Shown here: positions 3,449-18,708 of the stretch, in pieces | Position numbering within the stretch: the stretch's first letter is position 1 | Layout of the letters: every line of letters begins with the position of its first letter | Source of the DNA: a virus | IMG/VR virus record: IMGVR_UViG_3300020445_000059 | Location: 1 to 26,055 of that record | DNA: 26,055 nt | Strand: one strand, 5' to 3' | Position numbers and translations under genes: made by a program | Notes under the pieces: generated by a model | Database searches by the model: none | What the model was told of the DNA's origin: nothing | Seen by the model: only the letters and a program-made list of their open reading frames with translations

Positions 3449-6400
3449 TTAACAGAGTGTCAACGATGGGGATGGTTTAGTGTAAGTAACCACAGTATTT
3501 CCACCACCACCATTATTTATTACCGTATCCGTAACTTGCTGATGGAAAATGGTAGGTGGTGTAATGAAGTTACTGCGATCCTTGTCGCTCCTTGCTTTGA
3601 GCATCATCTGCTCAACTTGATGTTGCTGTGCATCTCTACTCTTTGTCATCTGAGAGATATTAACTGCTGCAATATTATCACGACTTTCTGGTGGATTACC
3701 TAGATTAAAACCTGCACCACCACCAGGAGTACCAAAGATACCACTCTCACCAAACTTACCTAATGTCTCTTCAAGTTTGGATAGTGTTTCCTGTGTATTG
3801 GTTGGTTTCTCCTTAGGAGTAATCTCTTCTGCTTCCTCACCTGCTGGTGGTTTAACTGTCTTAACTGGTTTAGTCTCACCTTTACCTGAGAGATTCTCCC
3901 AGTGCCATGCTTCATGTCCATCTGGATCATCAGTCGCATATCCTGGAATCTGACCGAATCCAAACTTCTTAGCATTCTGTCTCAACCACTTATAAGCACC
4001 ATCTGTATACCACAAGTCAACTGCACGACCAAGACCATGATTAGAGGTGCCTGGTGCTGCTGCTGTTCCTGGTCCCAACTCATTATAAAGTTCCTGCTGT
4101 CTTGCATAAGACCTATATGAAGAGTTAATCTTAAAGTGAGTACCTAACTTAAATCCATCAGCAGCTGCTGCATCCATCATTGCTTTGAATTGTGGTGCAA
4201 TAGCATTAGACAAACTATGTCCATACCCAATAGATGTTAGTGCCTCAGGTGGTAAGTAACCATTCTGATATTCACCACCAGCAGCAAACTTCTGCCAATC
4301 TTTATTTGGATCCTGAGCCCAATCCCTATTCATAATAATAGGGTCTACATATTTTCTTGCCTTTCTATTATGCTCAGATACCCCACCACCTGATGCTTTA
4401 GGTTCTACAACTTCAACAGGTTCTGGTGCATTCCAACTCTTAAAGATATCAATGGTCTTAATGACCATCTTATTAAAGATGTTGCCAGTCTCTAGTAATT
4501 GTTTTTGTAGCTCCTCATTTCTAAGCTCTTCTTCTGTCTTACTATTCTTTAAATCTCCTGTATTAATAGCCTTAACTGACGCAGCAGCACTTCCTAATCC
4601 TTTACCTGCAATAACTGCACTACCACCTGTACCAAATAATTGTGCAAGTCTACCAATATCTCCACCGATGAATGCCATTGCTGGTGCAGCAGCAAATCCT
4701 AACATGGATATACCACCTACTACACCACCAAGCATCGCTCCACCGATTGCTTGCATAATACTCAACTGAGGACCTACAAGTCCTCCTCCTGCTGCCATCT
4801 CTGGGGGCTTAGCATCAACTTCTCCACCTTTTGCTCTACTCATACCATCAACATCCGTTAGTCCGAACGTTAAGAAGTCTACCACACCTCCAGCGATACT
4901 GCCAGGGTTCATTAACCTTTTTGCATTATTAACTATCCAACCTACGGTCTCACCTATAATTTTAAATGATGCTCCCGTAACAAACTTAATAAAGTCCCAC
5001 ATTATCTTCAGTCCAGGCTGAAGTATAGTCCAGAGTGTAGAGAATAACTCACCTATCTCACTTAACCATTCTCCTCCACCAGCTGATTGCCAAACAGTCT
5101 TTATATAATCTCCTAGTAATGAGAAGTACCTTCCAATAGGTTCAAATAATGGTTTAAGTACTGGTGCAAATGTCTTACCTACCCACTCACCTAAGAAACT
5201 ACCAATAGCATTACCAACCATAGGTGCAAAAGGACCTAGGAATGGACCTAGTAGTGCAGTACCAGCAGCAGCACCTAAAATACCACCTGCTGCCATACCT
5301 GCACCTGCACCAACTGCTGAAGTTGGATCCTCTCCTGATGCTAATCCACCTAGTGCTCTAGTAACACCACCTATACCTGCTAATCCCTTCTGGAATCCAG
5401 GTTTCATGAAATTCTTCTGTAATCCTTTGGCACCCTTCTTAAACCCAATCTTTCCTCTCTGGGCTAATTTCTGGAGACCTGTCTTACTTCTTGGTTTATA
5501 TTGGGTCTGGAATCGACCCTTCATCTCAGATTCATACAGGTTAGAGGACATCCCCTTACCTGCTCTCTTACCTCTCTTCCTGTCTGCTCTCTGAGCAGCC
5601 TTCATATTAGCTTGGTATTCTTCTTTAGTGTATATTACACCCGTCCTTCTATCCCTATACCCGTTAATACGTGTCTTGCGGTCAACTGCTTGCTCCGCTT
5701 GCATTGTACCATGAGTATCAAAGACATTGCGTAGTCTCTGAATATCATTAATTGCCTTCCAAGGCATAATTAGGTACTGTGCAGCCCTAAGTGCAGCAAT
5801 ACCACCGATTAATTGGAAAGCACCAAGTAATCCTCTTAATGACCTCTTAACTGGTCCTTCACCAAAATCCCTACCTACTAGATTAGTAAGACCATTAAGT
5901 ATTCCGTTCACACCAAACCCTATGATCTTGGCAATAAACTTACCAATCATAAAGATTGCTTTAAAAGTCTTAGTAATCCTCTCAGGATCTGCTTTAGATA
6001 ACCAATCTAATGCTCCATAAGCTAAAAAGAAAGTGAATATATTGGTCAGTAGTTTACCAATACCTTCTAAGAATGACTTAATCGGACCCTTAGCTGCTGA
6101 CTTAGCAGCATCTATTCCCTCTTTCTGTGCTTCTTTCTCACCTGCTTCGGCAGCATCCTCTGCTTTATTTCTTTTCTGTTTCTTAAACTTTTTCTTTAGA
6201 GAATTTAACATGGACTTGAAGGTTTTCTTCTCCTCCTTATTCTCGTCCTCTAATTTATTTACTTGTTGTCGCCCCTTATTTGCTAACCATTCACGCTCAA
6301 ACTTAATAAGCTCATGTGCTTGCGAGAAATTCTTAGCAACACTTTCCGTAGTTGTACCAAGACTATTGATACCTTTGCCGATCGATGCAAACCCTGCGTC

Positions 6401-6454
6401 AAGAGGATTCTTAACTGCTACAGGTTTGATTTTGACAAAACTACGAATTGCCAT
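3449..6454 (-). CDS. Tape-measure-like tail protein with M15 (VanY-like) peptidase domain (1001 aa)
   Basis: Residues 45-120 form a charged coiled coil. Residues 131-240 are hydrophobic helices with ALDW at 148-151, and a Gly/Ala-rich membrane-like segment lies at about 380-425. From about 735 to 855 there is a peptidase M15/VanY-type domain: SSYRSYARQ (778-786), SNHGLGRAVDL (804-814) and HEAWHWE (847-853). By family knowledge H806, D813 and H851 would bind zinc and E848 would be the catalytic acid. All are present, so the domain looks active and probably cuts peptidoglycan peptides during infection. A second domain of unknown role follows and ends in a Gly/Asn-rich tail. The start overlaps the stop of the 61-aa gene (TAATG). 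Tape-measure function is inferred from architecture and from position just after the chaperone pair. Confidence 0.65.
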   Translation of the reverse strand: MAIRSFVKIKPVAVKNPLDAGFASIGKGINSLGTTTESVAKNFSQAHELIKFEREWLANKGRQQVNKLEDENKEEKKTFKSMLNSLKKKFKKQKRNKAEDAAEAGEKEAQKEGIDAAKSAAKGPIKSFLEGIGKLLTNIFTFFLAYGALDWLSKADPERITKTFKAIFMIGKFIAKIIGFGVNGILNGLTNLVGRDFGEGPVKRSLRGLLGAFQLIGGIAALRAAQYLIMPWKAINDIQRLRNVFDTHGTMQAEQAVDRKTRINGYRDRRTGVIYTKEEYQANMKAAQRADRKRGKRAGKGMSSNLYESEMKGRFQTQYKPRSKTGLQKLAQRGKIGFKKGAKGLQKNFMKPGFQKGLAGIGGVTRALGGLASGEDPTSAVGAGAGMAAGGILGAAAGTALLGPFLGPFAPMVGNAIGSFLGEWVGKTFAPVLKPLFEPIGRYFSLLGDYIKTVWQSAGGGEWLSEIGELFSTLWTILQPGLKIMWDFIKFVTGASFKIIGETVGWIVNNAKRLMNPGSIAGGVVDFLTFGLTDVDGMSRAKGGEVDAKPPEMAAGGGLVGPQLSIMQAIGGAMLGGVVGGISMLGFAAAPAMAFIGGDIGRLAQLFGTGGSAVIAGKGLGSAAASVKAINTGDLKNSKTEEELRNEELQKQLLETGNIFNKMVIKTIDIFKSWNAPEPVEVVEPKASGGGVSEHNRKARKYVDPIIMNRDWAQDPNKDWQKFAAGGEYQNGYLPPEALTSIGYGHSLSNAIAPQFKAMMDAAAADGFKLGTHFKINSSYRSYARQQELYNELGPGTAAAPGTSNHGLGRAVDLWYTDGAYKWLRQNAKKFGFGQIPGYATDDPDGHEAWHWENLSGKGETKPVKTVKPPAGEEAEEITPKEKPTNTQETLSKLEETLGKFGESGIFGTPGGGAGFNLGNPPESRDNIAAVNISQMTKSRDAQQHQVEQMMLKARSDKDRSNFITPPTIFHQQVTDTVINNGGGGNTVVTYTKPSPSLTLC

Positions 6455-6639
6455 TATAGCGACATTCCAGATTGAGCTTGACTATTCCGTCTTTCCTCCT
6501 CAGCTATGTGTGCCATAAGTAAACCGACATAAACGTCACGTTCCCAAGGCATCATATTTTCTAAGTCTTCAAGTGAATATTTGTGATGTTGCATTAATGC
6601 AAAGTTAGTCTTGTAGTAATTCTCAAGACTATTGTGCAT
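6454..6639 (-). CDS. gp51-position small protein; probable tail-chaperone extension
   Basis: A 61-aa acidic helical protein. It has a tyrosine-rich start, then YSLEDLENMMPWERDVYV and HIAEEERR. The pattern (a short helix, then L-x-x-MPWER-x-x-Y, then an acidic EEE tail) resembles small ORFs that follow the first tail-chaperone gene in many phages, where they are made as a -1 frameshift extension. The ATG is six bases after the gp26 stop, and the frame stays open upstream through a slippery heptamer in gp26. It may therefore be made both alone and as a gp26 fusion of about 298 aa. By position it matches T4 gp51, a hub assembly catalyst, but T4 gp51 is much longer, so that name is tentative. No good ribosome binding site precedes the ATG, which favours expression by frameshift or coupling. 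Confidence 0.55.
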   Translation of the reverse strand: MHNSLENYYKTNFALMQHHKYSLEDLENMMPWERDVYVGLLMAHIAEEERRNSQAQSGMSL

Positions 6640-6644
6640 AAGGG

Positions 6645-7349
6645 CTACTCGAAAAAAGATGCTAGTCCTTCTAATACTAAATCACTGGTTACCTTAGTCT
6701 TAGGGTTATATACAGGAATTGTATGAGAGAGTTTAGGCATAGTTTCAAAGAAGTTTTGAATCTTTGCAAACTGCTCACTATTCAAATTCTCTAGGAAGTC
6801 TAATGCTTCTGCTGGAGTGAAATCATCATATACTTCTTCCTTATCATAAACCTGCTCAATACAATTAGCAGCAAGTTTAAAGATATCCTCTAATCCAGGT
6901 GTTTCAGACATATTCTGTGAGATGAATACATCGATTGACGGATATTTCATAATAATACCGACCCCATCACCTACTTCAATTTTAGTAGTGTGACCTTCTG
7001 GGATTTGGACTTCCACGTCTTCTAGGGGGATTTGAATTTCCACCTTAGTTTTCTCATCATCTGGTGCGATAATTGTAAATTCGCTAACTTCACCAACTGC
7101 CTTAGAACGAATCTTAAGGAAGATATACTCAATCTCGAAGGTTGCAAGTTCTTCAACTTTTCCCTTCAAATTGGTACAATTCTTGATGATAGTCTTCACT
7201 GCTTTCATCATTTGCTTGTCGTCTTTCGACTCCATTGCAAGATAAAGCAATTTCTCTTCTTTTACAAGAAAAGGTCGATAATGTACTTTTTTGCCTGTAA
7301 TAGGCAACTCCATCTCATACTCAGGGATGGCTAATTTAGGTAAAGGCAT
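6645..7349 (-). CDS. gp26: Baseplate hub assembly protein gp26 (T4 gp26 family)
   Basis: A 234-aa protein recognisable as the T4 gp26 family (T4 gp26 is about 208 aa). It opens with MPLPKLAIPEYEMELPITGK and then YRPFLVKEEKLLYLAMES, the most conserved part of the family, followed by the IEYIFLKIRSKAVGE segment. gp26 takes part in assembling the baseplate hub and is not known as an enzyme. The last codons read TCT TTT TTC GAG TAG on the minus strand, which contains a T TTT TTC slippery heptamer in register. An SD-like AGAAGGA lies eight bases before the heptamer. The gene is preceded by a 28-base gap holding a palindrome that overlaps the end of the gp54-like gene. Read with the downstream 61-aa gene and the tape-measure genes, it behaves like a tail assembly chaperone. 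Confidence 0.85.
   Translation of the reverse strand: MPLPKLAIPEYEMELPITGKKVHYRPFLVKEEKLLYLAMESKDDKQMMKAVKTIIKNCTNLKGKVEELATFEIEYIFLKIRSKAVGEVSEFTIIAPDDEKTKVEIQIPLEDVEVQIPEGHTTKIEVGDGVGIIMKYPSIDVFISQNMSETPGLEDIFKLAANCIEQVYDKEEVYDDFTPAEALDFLENLNSEQFAKIQNFFETMPKLSHTIPVYNPKTKVTSDLVLEGLASFFE
6651..6657 (-). other. Candidate -1 programmed ribosomal frameshift site (T TTT TTC)
   Basis: The minus-strand heptamer TTTTTTC sits in the X XXY YYZ register of gp26: its codons are TTT TTC, both phenylalanine, and they re-pair as TTT TTT after a one-base slip. The gp26 stop comes one codon later. The -1 frame reads CGA GTA GCC CTT and then the ATG of the 61-aa gene, with no stop. Upstream, AGAAGGA lies eight bases before the heptamer, like the stimulatory SD of dnaX. 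Downstream, AGTCTTG and CAAGACT (minus strand, 6607-6630) can form a perfect 7-bp hairpin, though 20 bases after the heptamer, farther than usual. Confidence 0.7.
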
Positions 7350-7377: not shown

Positions 7378-8106
7378 CTAGCTAAATCCAGCTACTTCTC
7401 CTTGGTCGATATTTAGTCCAAGTATGTCACTAACAGTGCCAAATGGGTTAACTACCTTATCTTTAGTATCTGCTTTCCAAGGAAGTAAGTCATTTTGAAT
7501 GGTATCAAACCTATGTCTCTCATATGCAAAGGTAACATCCAACTTAATTAGATCTGCTTGAGCATTATTGAATTGGTGTCCAGACATATCTACAGGAAAT
7601 GCTCCAAACATCTGCCATACAGCAGAAGACCTATTCATTCTACTCTCATATTTAACATCATTTATATATCCTTCCATCTTTACAGGTGCTGCTAATTCCC
7701 ACTTAGCAACAAGAATATTACTTACATATTCATCATAGAATGTGACTCTATTCTCTTGATCAGCAGCAGTTAAATTCATCCATTGGTCAAATAACTGCCT
7801 ATGAATCATATCTTTAGTAACAATGAATGAACAGGTAAATTCACTAACTGCTTGACCAGTTGCATACTTGTGTTGGACACCGACTGCTTTAATAGATGAT
7901 GTAGTAACCCTTCTACCAGGTACTGATACATCATCAGCAAACATATCTATTGCTTGTGCTAGTTCAGTCTGCCTTGACCTGAGGTCAGGATTTCTTGTCC
8001 AAACTACAGCAGGAATTGGAATTCTAACTTCATACAGGTTACTCCGAGATGGCTCTTTATTGCCACTCATAACCGTGTCTAGGAAGACATTAAATCCTGT
8101 TCTCAT
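7378..8106 (-). CDS. Baseplate tail tube initiator, gp54-like
   Basis: A 242-aa protein of the tail-tube/tube-initiator fold. Near residue 60 it has DVSVPGRRVTTSSIKAVG and then a YATGQAVSEF strand, a pattern seen in tail-tube-like proteins of phages and related injection machines. Near the C-terminus DLIKLDVTFAYERHRFD resembles the corresponding segment of T4 gp54 (DVTFAYRVM). gp54 sits on the hub and starts polymerisation of the gp19 tail tube. T4 gp54 is 320 aa, so this is shorter. The ATG overlaps the stop of the upstream 159-aa gene (ATGA). A second tail-tube-like protein or a gp19 paralogue is the main alternative. The hub/tail neighbourhood supports gp54. Confidence 0.6.
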   Translation of the reverse strand: MRTGFNVFLDTVMSGNKEPSRSNLYEVRIPIPAVVWTRNPDLRSRQTELAQAIDMFADDVSVPGRRVTTSSIKAVGVQHKYATGQAVSEFTCSFIVTKDMIHRQLFDQWMNLTAADQENRVTFYDEYVSNILVAKWELAAPVKMEGYINDVKYESRMNRSSAVWQMFGAFPVDMSGHQFNNAQADLIKLDVTFAYERHRFDTIQNDLLPWKADTKDKVVNPFGTVSDILGLNIDQGEVAGFS

Positions 8107-12262: not shown

Positions 12263-12608
12263 CACCCTGTTTTATCTGTTCTCTCCAGAATCTCAACTTC
12301 TCTTCCATAGTGTCTAGGATAACAGTAAGGTTGAGACCAGGTGCATAAGCACCACTCATCTCCTCAATCCTATCCTTAATTTCTTTAGCAGTCTCATCAT
12401 CGTTGACACTGTGTGCTGCTAGTTGTAGTCTTGCGTAGAATACTTTCTGTTTAGCAATCAACTCTAGTGTCTTCTCGATGTGGTCAAGTCTTTCCTTTGG
12501 AGAGAAATCTTTAAGTCCAGAGGACATCTTTAACAGTTCAGTATAACAGTCCTGTATCTCTTCTAACTCTTCCTTTACTATTTCAGATTTAAAAAAGTCG
12601 TCCTTCAT
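12249..12608 (-). CDS. DUF1825-like conserved protein
   Basis: A 119-aa helical, charged protein. Its start, FFKSEIVKEELEEIQDCYTE, fits the DUF1825 family (PF08855), whose members begin FF-x-SEIV-x-x-E. The next part (ERLDHIEKTLELIAKQKVFYARLQL) has the family's helix and Q-x-x-[FY]-x-R pattern. DUF1825 proteins occur in cyanobacteria and their phages, and their role is unknown. The ATG overlaps the gp33-like stop (ATGA). The gp32 promoter lies at the 3' end of this gene. Position between gp33-like and gp32 suggests a link with replication or transcription, but that is inference only. Confidence 0.65.
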   Translation of the reverse strand: MKDDFFKSEIVKEELEEIQDCYTELLKMSSGLKDFSPKERLDHIEKTLELIAKQKVFYARLQLAAHSVNDDETAKEIKDRIEEMSGAYAPGLNLTVILDTMEEKLRFWREQIKQGVDTA

Positions 12609-12850
12609 AGGTTTAAAACTCCTCGTGATGTTCTCTTAATATAATTTAGTTGCTGTGCATCCCACTTAATCTTATCCTTGAGTGGTTTAGAGACTAACTT
12701 GTTGACAGTTTCAACTTCAATCTCAAACTCTTCACATACTGATGCGACAGCTTCAATATAGTTAATTAGGCCGTTGGAATCTTTCACACGCTCCTCTACA
12801 AGTGCGGTAAACTTCCCCTGTGTCATAAATTTTTCTTCAATTTCCTTCAT
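12605..12850 (-). CDS. Late-transcription accessory protein, gp33-like
   Basis: An 81-aa protein similar in size and pattern to cyanophage gp33. It has NGLINYIEAVASVCEEFEIE, then VETVNKLVSKPLKDKIKWDA and the end QLNYIKRTSRGVLNL. gp33 bridges RNA polymerase and the sliding clamp and permits activated late transcription with gp55. Here it would serve the TATAAATA promoters of this window. T4 gp33 is 112 aa, so this is shorter. Closeness to gp32 agrees with the T4 order 33-59-32, with gene 59 replaced by the DUF1825-like gene. The ATG at 12850 overlaps the upstream stop (ATGA); an internal ATG at residue 9 is an alternative start. Confidence 0.6.
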   Translation of the reverse strand: MKEIEEKFMTQGKFTALVEERVKDSNGLINYIEAVASVCEEFEIEVETVNKLVSKPLKDKIKWDAQQLNYIKRTSRGVLNL

Positions 12851-18094: not shown

Positions 18095-18448
18095 TTATTT
18101 AGTAGACTTTCTTGGTCGCCCAGGTCTACGTGTTTCATAATAATCTTTTGCATCATTAATAAGGGTCTCGAAGTATTTTCTAATCTTACGTGCCTGTGGC
18201 TTAGGTAGATTACTATAAGCCTCAGTCATGTATTTGTCCCTTGCAATGTACTGTGTTAATTCATCAGACACTTGCTTAAGCTCACCCATTGAAGATGACT
18301 CTATTAATTCAGCAGTTTGTTTGCGTGTCCACTTGTTACCAGTTAGATACGACTTCATATTCAATAGGAATCTACCATTGAACATCGCTTCGTCGATTGC
18401 TCTGTCAATAATAGTATAGAGTTCCTCTGAGTTAGCGTCACTCATCAT
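18095..18448 (-). CDS. Helical protein with AT-hook-like C-terminus (117 aa)
   Basis: A 117-aa mostly helical protein. Its C-terminal residues RRPGRPRKSTK contain the P-G-R-P-R-K core of an AT-hook, a motif that grips the minor groove of AT-rich DNA. The rest (DANSEELYTIIDRAIDEAMF ... KYFETLINDAKDYYE) has no recognised domain. It may bind phage or host DNA, or regulate transcription. It has two ATG codons in a row; the first overlaps the glutaredoxin stop as ATGA. I see no catalytic motif. Confidence 0.6.
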   Translation of the reverse strand: MMSDANSEELYTIIDRAIDEAMFNGRFLLNMKSYLTGNKWTRKQTAELIESSSMGELKQVSDELTQYIARDKYMTEAYSNLPKPQARKIRKYFETLINDAKDYYETRRPGRPRKSTK

Positions 18449-18708
18449 ACAAATTTTCCCTCTCGAAGGTATTTAATAGTTTCGGTGCAACCACCCATCT
18501 TTTGTCCCTGTATGATAACTTGGGGGAAGGTAGCGGTCTGTCCAAACTCTTGTTTGAATTGCTCCCTTGTAAAGTTAACATTCAAAACGTATTCTGCAAA
18601 GGCCCACCCCTTGCTTTTGTAAACTTCCTTAATCTTTGTGCAAAATCCGCAACCTGGTCTTGTATAGATTGCTGTATTGCCTGGTTGAATTGTAGGTATC
18701 TCGGCCAT
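18445..18708 (-). CDS. Glutaredoxin
   Basis: An 87-aa glutaredoxin. The active site is C20-G-F-C23 in YTRPGCGFCTKIKE, followed by the cis-proline region TATFPQVIIQGQKMGGCTET, as in known Grx proteins. It reduces disulfides with glutathione and can feed ribonucleotide reductase, which agrees with pyrE and thyX on the same strand. The gene begins 23 bases after a strong terminator that closes the upstream beta-barrel gene. No good ribosome binding site or promoter is evident between them, so its message may depend on read-through or a promoter I do not recognise. Confidence 0.92.
   Translation of the reverse strand: MAEIPTIQPGNTAIYTRPGCGFCTKIKEVYKSKGWAFAEYVLNVNFTREQFKQEFGQTATFPQVIIQGQKMGGCTETIKYLREGKFV

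Follow-up and report, generated by a model that had tools for sequence, protein, structure and literature searches.

Evidence for a probable -1 programmed ribosomal frameshift joining gp26 and gp51 in the tail assembly chaperone gene of cyanophage-type T4-like phages

The locus described here raises the question of whether the short gene that follows gp26 in T4-like phages of the cyanophage type is a gene in its own right, or the second half of gp26 read after a change of frame. Cyanophage gp51 has about 20% of the usual length, and in cyanophages and marine vibriophages the first ~200 residues of gp51 are missing (Sullivan et al., 2010; PMC3037559). The window (the whole stretch of DNA analysed, 26,055 nucleotides, positions 1 to 26,055 of IMG/VR record IMGVR_UViG_3300020445_000059) belongs to a T4-like phage of the cyanophage type; its best named DNA match here was P-TIM40 (~69% identity). 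Judged from the sequence, the gp26/gp51 junction very probably carries a -1 programmed ribosomal frameshift site, which would fuse gp26 to gp51 within a tail assembly chaperone (TAC) gene. The shortness of cyanophage gp51 would then be explained, because the missing residues would be gp26, supplied by the frameshift. The junction is made up as follows.

6645..7349, minus strand: gp26 ORF, the putative short form of the chaperone (TAC-N, equivalent to lambda G); assigned by PF12322, phrog_150, an AlphaFold2 model and structural matches
6651..6657, minus strand: slippery heptamer T TTT TTC, in the correct register and conserved as T TTT TTC/T
6645..6647, minus strand: 0-frame stop TAG of gp26, one codon (GAG) after the heptamer
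6454..6650, minus strand: -1 extension (RVAL plus the gp51 ORF), the putative C-terminal domain of the long form (TAC-NC, the T in GT); assigned by phrog_634, the phrog_150 C-terminus and pN/pS
6639-6454, minus strand: 61-aa gp51 ORF, from the ORF reading
6637..6639, minus strand: ATG of the 61-aa ORF; in the clade of the window it may act as a separate start, and most lineages do not conserve it

The gp26 gene (234 aa; minus strand, 7349-6645) ends in GCA TCT TTT TTC GAG TAG. As the first-pass annotation had claimed, T TTT TTC lies in register one codon before the stop (6657-6651, minus strand), and the -1 frame is open through four codons into the 61-aa gene: a slip gives FF-R-V-A-L-M with no stop, and a fusion of 233 + 4 + 61 = 298 aa, the length predicted. 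All the coordinates that it gave at this junction were correct. The bare string TTTTTTC is not rare in the window (7 seen, 4.6 expected), but an in-frame T TTT TTY was found once in 8,058 codon positions (30 genes tested), at the end of gp26. The heptamer stands above chance because it is conserved in relatives, not because of this single occurrence. Conservation was scored over 203 junctions with a complete gp26, taken from viral contigs and named phages and forming 68, 39 and 20 clusters at 90, 80 and 70% amino-acid identity, respectively.

The peptide encoded in the -1 frame matched phrog_634 (baseplate hub assembly catalyst; E 6e-31) and, in addition, the C-terminus of phrog_150, a profile that gp26 itself matches over the first part; the 61-aa ORF on its own is annotated as 'baseplate hub assembly catalyst'. 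Its pN/pS was 0.10-0.11 in two clades, as against 1.3 or more for the main segment in the other frames, and the linker of five codons that leads from the slip to the first Met position gave 0.24-0.26. By these ratios the -1 frame is under purifying selection at the protein level past the 0-frame stop. The frame was open in the relatives, where a -1 stop would have spoken against a fusion. In several clusters (for example MED4-213, D479, L130 and L142) a -1 stop abuts the heptamer, so that a slip at the heptamer is the only way for a ribosome to arrive at the conserved FFR[VI]AL.

Two readings give the 61-aa ORF a start of its own. Under the first, both routes operate in the clade of the window, a frameshift fusion together with a free 61-aa gp51 made from the ATG; this adds to the frameshift and does not exclude it. 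The window-type subclade, with 17 distinct downstream sequences, has kept the ATG, but the sister subclades carry CTG, TTG or TTC in its place and keep the domain, so that a free gp51 is not generally needed, and we consider this reading unlikely. Under the second, gp51 is only a separate small protein, translated from its own ATG or by termination-reinitiation, and the heptamer is incidental. In the window the ATG follows the gp26 stop at a distance of 5 nt, as is normal for coupled translation, and the records annotate gp51 as a gene of its own. The missing ribosome-binding site of gp51 was dropped as an argument against a separate start; many genes of the window phage have no Shine-Dalgarno sequence, so its absence is uninformative. 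What makes a separate gp51 very improbable is that 26 of the 39 clusters have no ATG within 12 codons after the slip, that 16 of the 39 have no ATG, GTG or TTG either in that stretch or farther upstream in this frame, that the residues preceding any Met are conserved, that the heptamer is invariant, and that T4 gp51 is a fused protein.

Several irregularities were noted in deposited records (loci L082, L091, L089, L216 and L086). The annotated gp51 starts of S-RSM4 and HTVC008M are internal Met codons inside the conserved domain; the gene models of S-SSM4, S-CAM4 and CC2 have no gp51 and leave the conserved coding stretch unannotated. In the clade adjoining that of the window (L013, L029, L047, L056 and their kin) the gp51 ATG is replaced by CTG or TTG, and the strong downstream hairpin is also missing.

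All 203 junctions carried T TTT TTY (T TTT TTC in 175, T TTT TTT in 28), at a distance of 0 or 1 codon from the stop in every case; relatives without a slippery heptamer were looked for among these junctions and none was found. The codon preceding TTT was AGT, AAT, TCT, GAT or GCT, encoding four residues (Ser, Asn, Asp and Ala) with a third base that is always T, and the first Phe codon was always TTT. From codon usage, the naive probability of such conservation is ~1e-17, a figure that assumes independent clusters and is made optimistic by their relatedness. The heptamer was also present in ten further named phages checked by hand, several from distant hosts: BUCT608, avDM12, S-CAM4, ACG-2014f, P-TIM40, Caulobacter Cr30, Sinorhizobium phiN3, Agrobacterium OLIVR5, S-PM2 and Citrobacter Ci1. 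Two other gene ends of the window, each with an in-frame XXXYYYZ before an ATGA overlap with the next gene, served as controls.

12605-12850, minus strand: T TTA AAC at the end of the late-promoter regulator gene
18445-18708, minus strand: G GGA AAA at the end of the thioredoxin-domain gene

Both control genes overlap the next gene in the -1 frame. As frameshift sites both were rejected: T TTA AAC was freely lost among 80 relatives and G GGA AAA among 66, and each is probably due to chance. The gp26 genes of the T4 type also encode Phe-Phe at this position, within GAG TTC TTT or GAA TTC TTC, with G TTT TTT at locus L223; their -1 frame contains no gp51. The loss of the control heptamers, together with a T4-type Phe-Phe that lacks the heptamer, means that neither the overlap geometry nor the conservation of Phe-Phe explains the invariant heptamer. 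That TTT TTC is kept merely for the Phe-Phe of the protein, its slippery appearance and the open frame being due to chance, is accordingly a reading to which we give hardly any weight: Phe-Phe is indeed invariant in the gp26 alignment, T4-type proteins included, but the base before TTT is T whether the codon stands for Ser, Asn, Asp or Ala, the T4-type phages lack the heptamer as just described, and purifying selection acts on the -1 frame. An indel from sequencing or assembly, splitting a single gp26-51 gene, T runs being indel-prone, is refuted for practical purposes by the number of independent records, since the same split occurs in more than 200 contigs and in cultured phage genomes with diverse flanking sequence.

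Candidate stimulators of a slip were examined on both sides of the heptamer. The downstream one is the following.

6591..6645, minus strand: stem-loop, probable frameshift stimulator (z -4.1; codon-preserving resampling)

A hairpin of 7 bp had been described at this place; it is real and larger, with nested stems (6645-6591). The 71 nt from just before the heptamer folded at -16.3 kcal/mol (z = -4.1), and 0 of 200 shuffles were as stable. The spacer from the heptamer is 5 nt to an outer G-C clamp and 11 nt to the first long stem. In a codon-preserving test, in which codons were resampled with the -1 protein unchanged, 0 of 150 resamples of locus L001 (identical to the window) were as stable as the hairpin, and z was below -1.65 at 68% of 66 junctions. 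The signal was confined to one stretch, which begins 9 nt from the start of the heptamer (mean z -2.95); eleven other stretches gave mean z values from -0.94 to +0.33 in the same test. Two clades have different stems at the same place, and the hairpin is weak or absent in L013/L047/L056, HTVC008M, L102, L193 and L206. Covariation was weak to modest because most stem pairs never vary, and the case for the hairpin therefore rests on the codon-preserving test. On that basis the hairpin is a probable stimulator, common but not universal among the clades. Upstream, the SD-like AGAAGGA reported in the first-pass annotation is present 8 nt before the heptamer (6672-6666), but a role as stimulator was unsupported: in a synonymous-codon test an internal Shine-Dalgarno gave z +0.97 at L001 and a mean of -0.64 over 68 junctions, and the element is missing in several relatives.

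The assignment of gp26 was made by profile searches (PF12322, E 2e-69; phrog_150) and from an AlphaFold2 model (mean pLDDT 85.4). The best structural matches of the model (VIA-align, residues 1-95) were 3fgx (Z 8.1) and 2ob9 (HK97 TAC; Z 7.7), followed by YqbN 3klu (Z 7.2) and 5ir0 (Z 5.4), with the next row at 4.7; a Z near 8 is modest by the tool's own note. YqbN is a TAC family protein (PMC9603447). Foldseek alone gave no significant E-value with the model, and gp26 had no match when searched as a sequence profile against PDB chains. That the top rows agree points specifically to a tail assembly chaperone fold (HK97 gp13, YqbN) as that predicted for the N-terminal domain of gp26. The genes on either side were assigned as follows.

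7378..8106, minus strand: upstream tail tube protein gene (phrog_45, E 9e-39)
3449..6454, minus strand: large downstream gene whose profile matches include endolysin and tape measure (phrog_1200, E 4e-21; phrog_16823, tape measure, E 3e-16; phrog_167, E 3e-9)

The window thus has the gene order tail tube, chaperone, tape-measure/endolysin-like gene, and the order is similar in the KVP40, Cr30 and phiN3 records. The earlier statement that tape-measure-like genes follow directly holds in that the next gene matches tape measure, but its endolysin profile matches are stronger.

The first-pass proposal of a G/GT-like -1 frameshift that fuses gp26 to the next small gene is strongly supported by the heptamer, the selection on the -1 frame, the hairpin, the fold and the gene order. 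In the mechanism envisaged, most ribosomes would stop at the gp26 TAG and yield the short chaperone, TAC-N. The downstream hairpin would pause a fraction of them with T TTT TTC in the P and A sites; these would slip back one base, both tRNA-Phe re-pairing with TTT TTT, and would then read beyond the stop for a further 65 residues (RVAL plus gp51), the product being TAC-NC, a long chaperone of 298 aa. If the pair behaves like lambda G/GT, the two forms, present in a set ratio, would cover the tape measure and bring in subunits of the tail tube. The slip, its efficiency, the role in assembly and the action of the two forms as G and GT are what we infer from these features.

Many other tailed phages make their tail chaperones by a slip of this kind, and a conserved -1 frameshift of tail assembly genes was reportedly described by Xu, Hendrix and Duda in 2004. 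The present site resembles lambda G/GT and P2 E/E' in having a slippery heptamer close to where the short ORF ends, a small -1 extension, a position between the tail tube and tape measure genes and a TAC fold in the short form; it differs from them in that the proteins belong to PF12322, the heptamer is T TTT TTY, a strong hairpin lies directly downstream and the phages are T4-like myoviruses of the cyanophage type. It also resembles the TAC gene of Vandenendeviridae and Andersonviridae myoviruses, where a -1 frameshift occurs at a poly-T site with an invariant GTTTTT and the -1 frame is open in all members (PMC12846349), although those are different phage families and GTTTTT is not T TTT TTY. 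According to two citing papers, the chaperones of T4-like phages were identified by Vladimirov, Gautam and Davidson (2022; doi 10.1016/j.virol.2021.11.003): the PRFect paper (PMC10885494) cites that work for separate short and long genes in 'some T4-like phages', and in the paper on phage Adele (PMC12846349) it is the source given for slippery poly-T sequences in T4-like TAC-N genes. As seen through these citing papers, frameshifting in some T4-like phages has probably been reported already. The novelty of a gp26/gp51 frameshift, implied in the first-pass annotation, is reduced to that extent (PMC12846349); a literature search that covered the 2022 work via its citing papers found no paper naming cyanophage gp26/gp51 as a frameshift pair.

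In T4 itself the arrangement is another one. The title of the 2022 work argues for a mechanism other than frameshifting. T4 genes 26 and 51 lie on opposite strands, and both products match PF12322 and phrog_150, as short and long forms of one chaperone from the same families as here (phrog_634 included). T4 gp51 (249 aa) combines a gp26-like domain and the C-terminus in one protein; when the two sequences were compared directly, the -1 peptide aligned to residues 200-244 of T4 gp51 (FKLLVNPDEI in T4, FRVALMHNSL here; E 7e-5). Thus the long form of T4 is a separate, fused gene on the other strand, whereas here it would come from the same gene by frameshift, the -1 gp51 ORF having 61 aa and no gp26-like domain. 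Aeromonas phage 31.2 has the T4 arrangement; the frameshift arrangement is found in KVP40 and CC2, which belong to Straboviridae as well. The idea that a frameshift ties T4-type hub assembly to G/GT would apply to many T4-like phages, but not to T4, which has no heptamer and carries gene 51 as a separate, already fused paralogue.

The Ackermannviridae-type gp26 homologues end in GTT TTC, CTT TTC or ATT TTC, not in T TTT TTY (L087, Serratia phage 2050H1, 1501-1700; L213, Vibrio phage K362, 2040-2300; L225, Klebsiella phage 0507-KN2-1, 1960-2220). The -1 frame of these loci is open through a gp51-like domain (MPWHLD...), in most cases unannotated, and their sequences suggest a likely frameshift at a different, non-canonical slippery site.

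The simplest history would have the frameshift as the ancestral state, with a gene duplication taking its place in the T4/Biquartavirus lineage; in the tree of the gp26 family, long branches and open forks allow T4 gp26 and gp51 either to be sisters or not. A joint account is put forward tentatively, as possible but somewhat doubtful as a whole: the frameshift would be ancestral and still the commonest T4-like route to the long chaperone, duplication in T4/Biquartavirus would have frozen the fusion as gene 51, and the short 'gp51' of cyanophages, pelagiphages and vibriophages would be no separate gene but the -1 half of gp26, helped by a downstream hairpin. The frameshift would change how a near-core T4-like gene has to be annotated, correcting its model across hundreds of genomes of marine phages, and would tie the hub assembly factors gp26 and gp51 to the general tail-chaperone mechanism. 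Within Straboviridae, it would offer a natural experiment in which a frameshift can be set against a duplicated gene.
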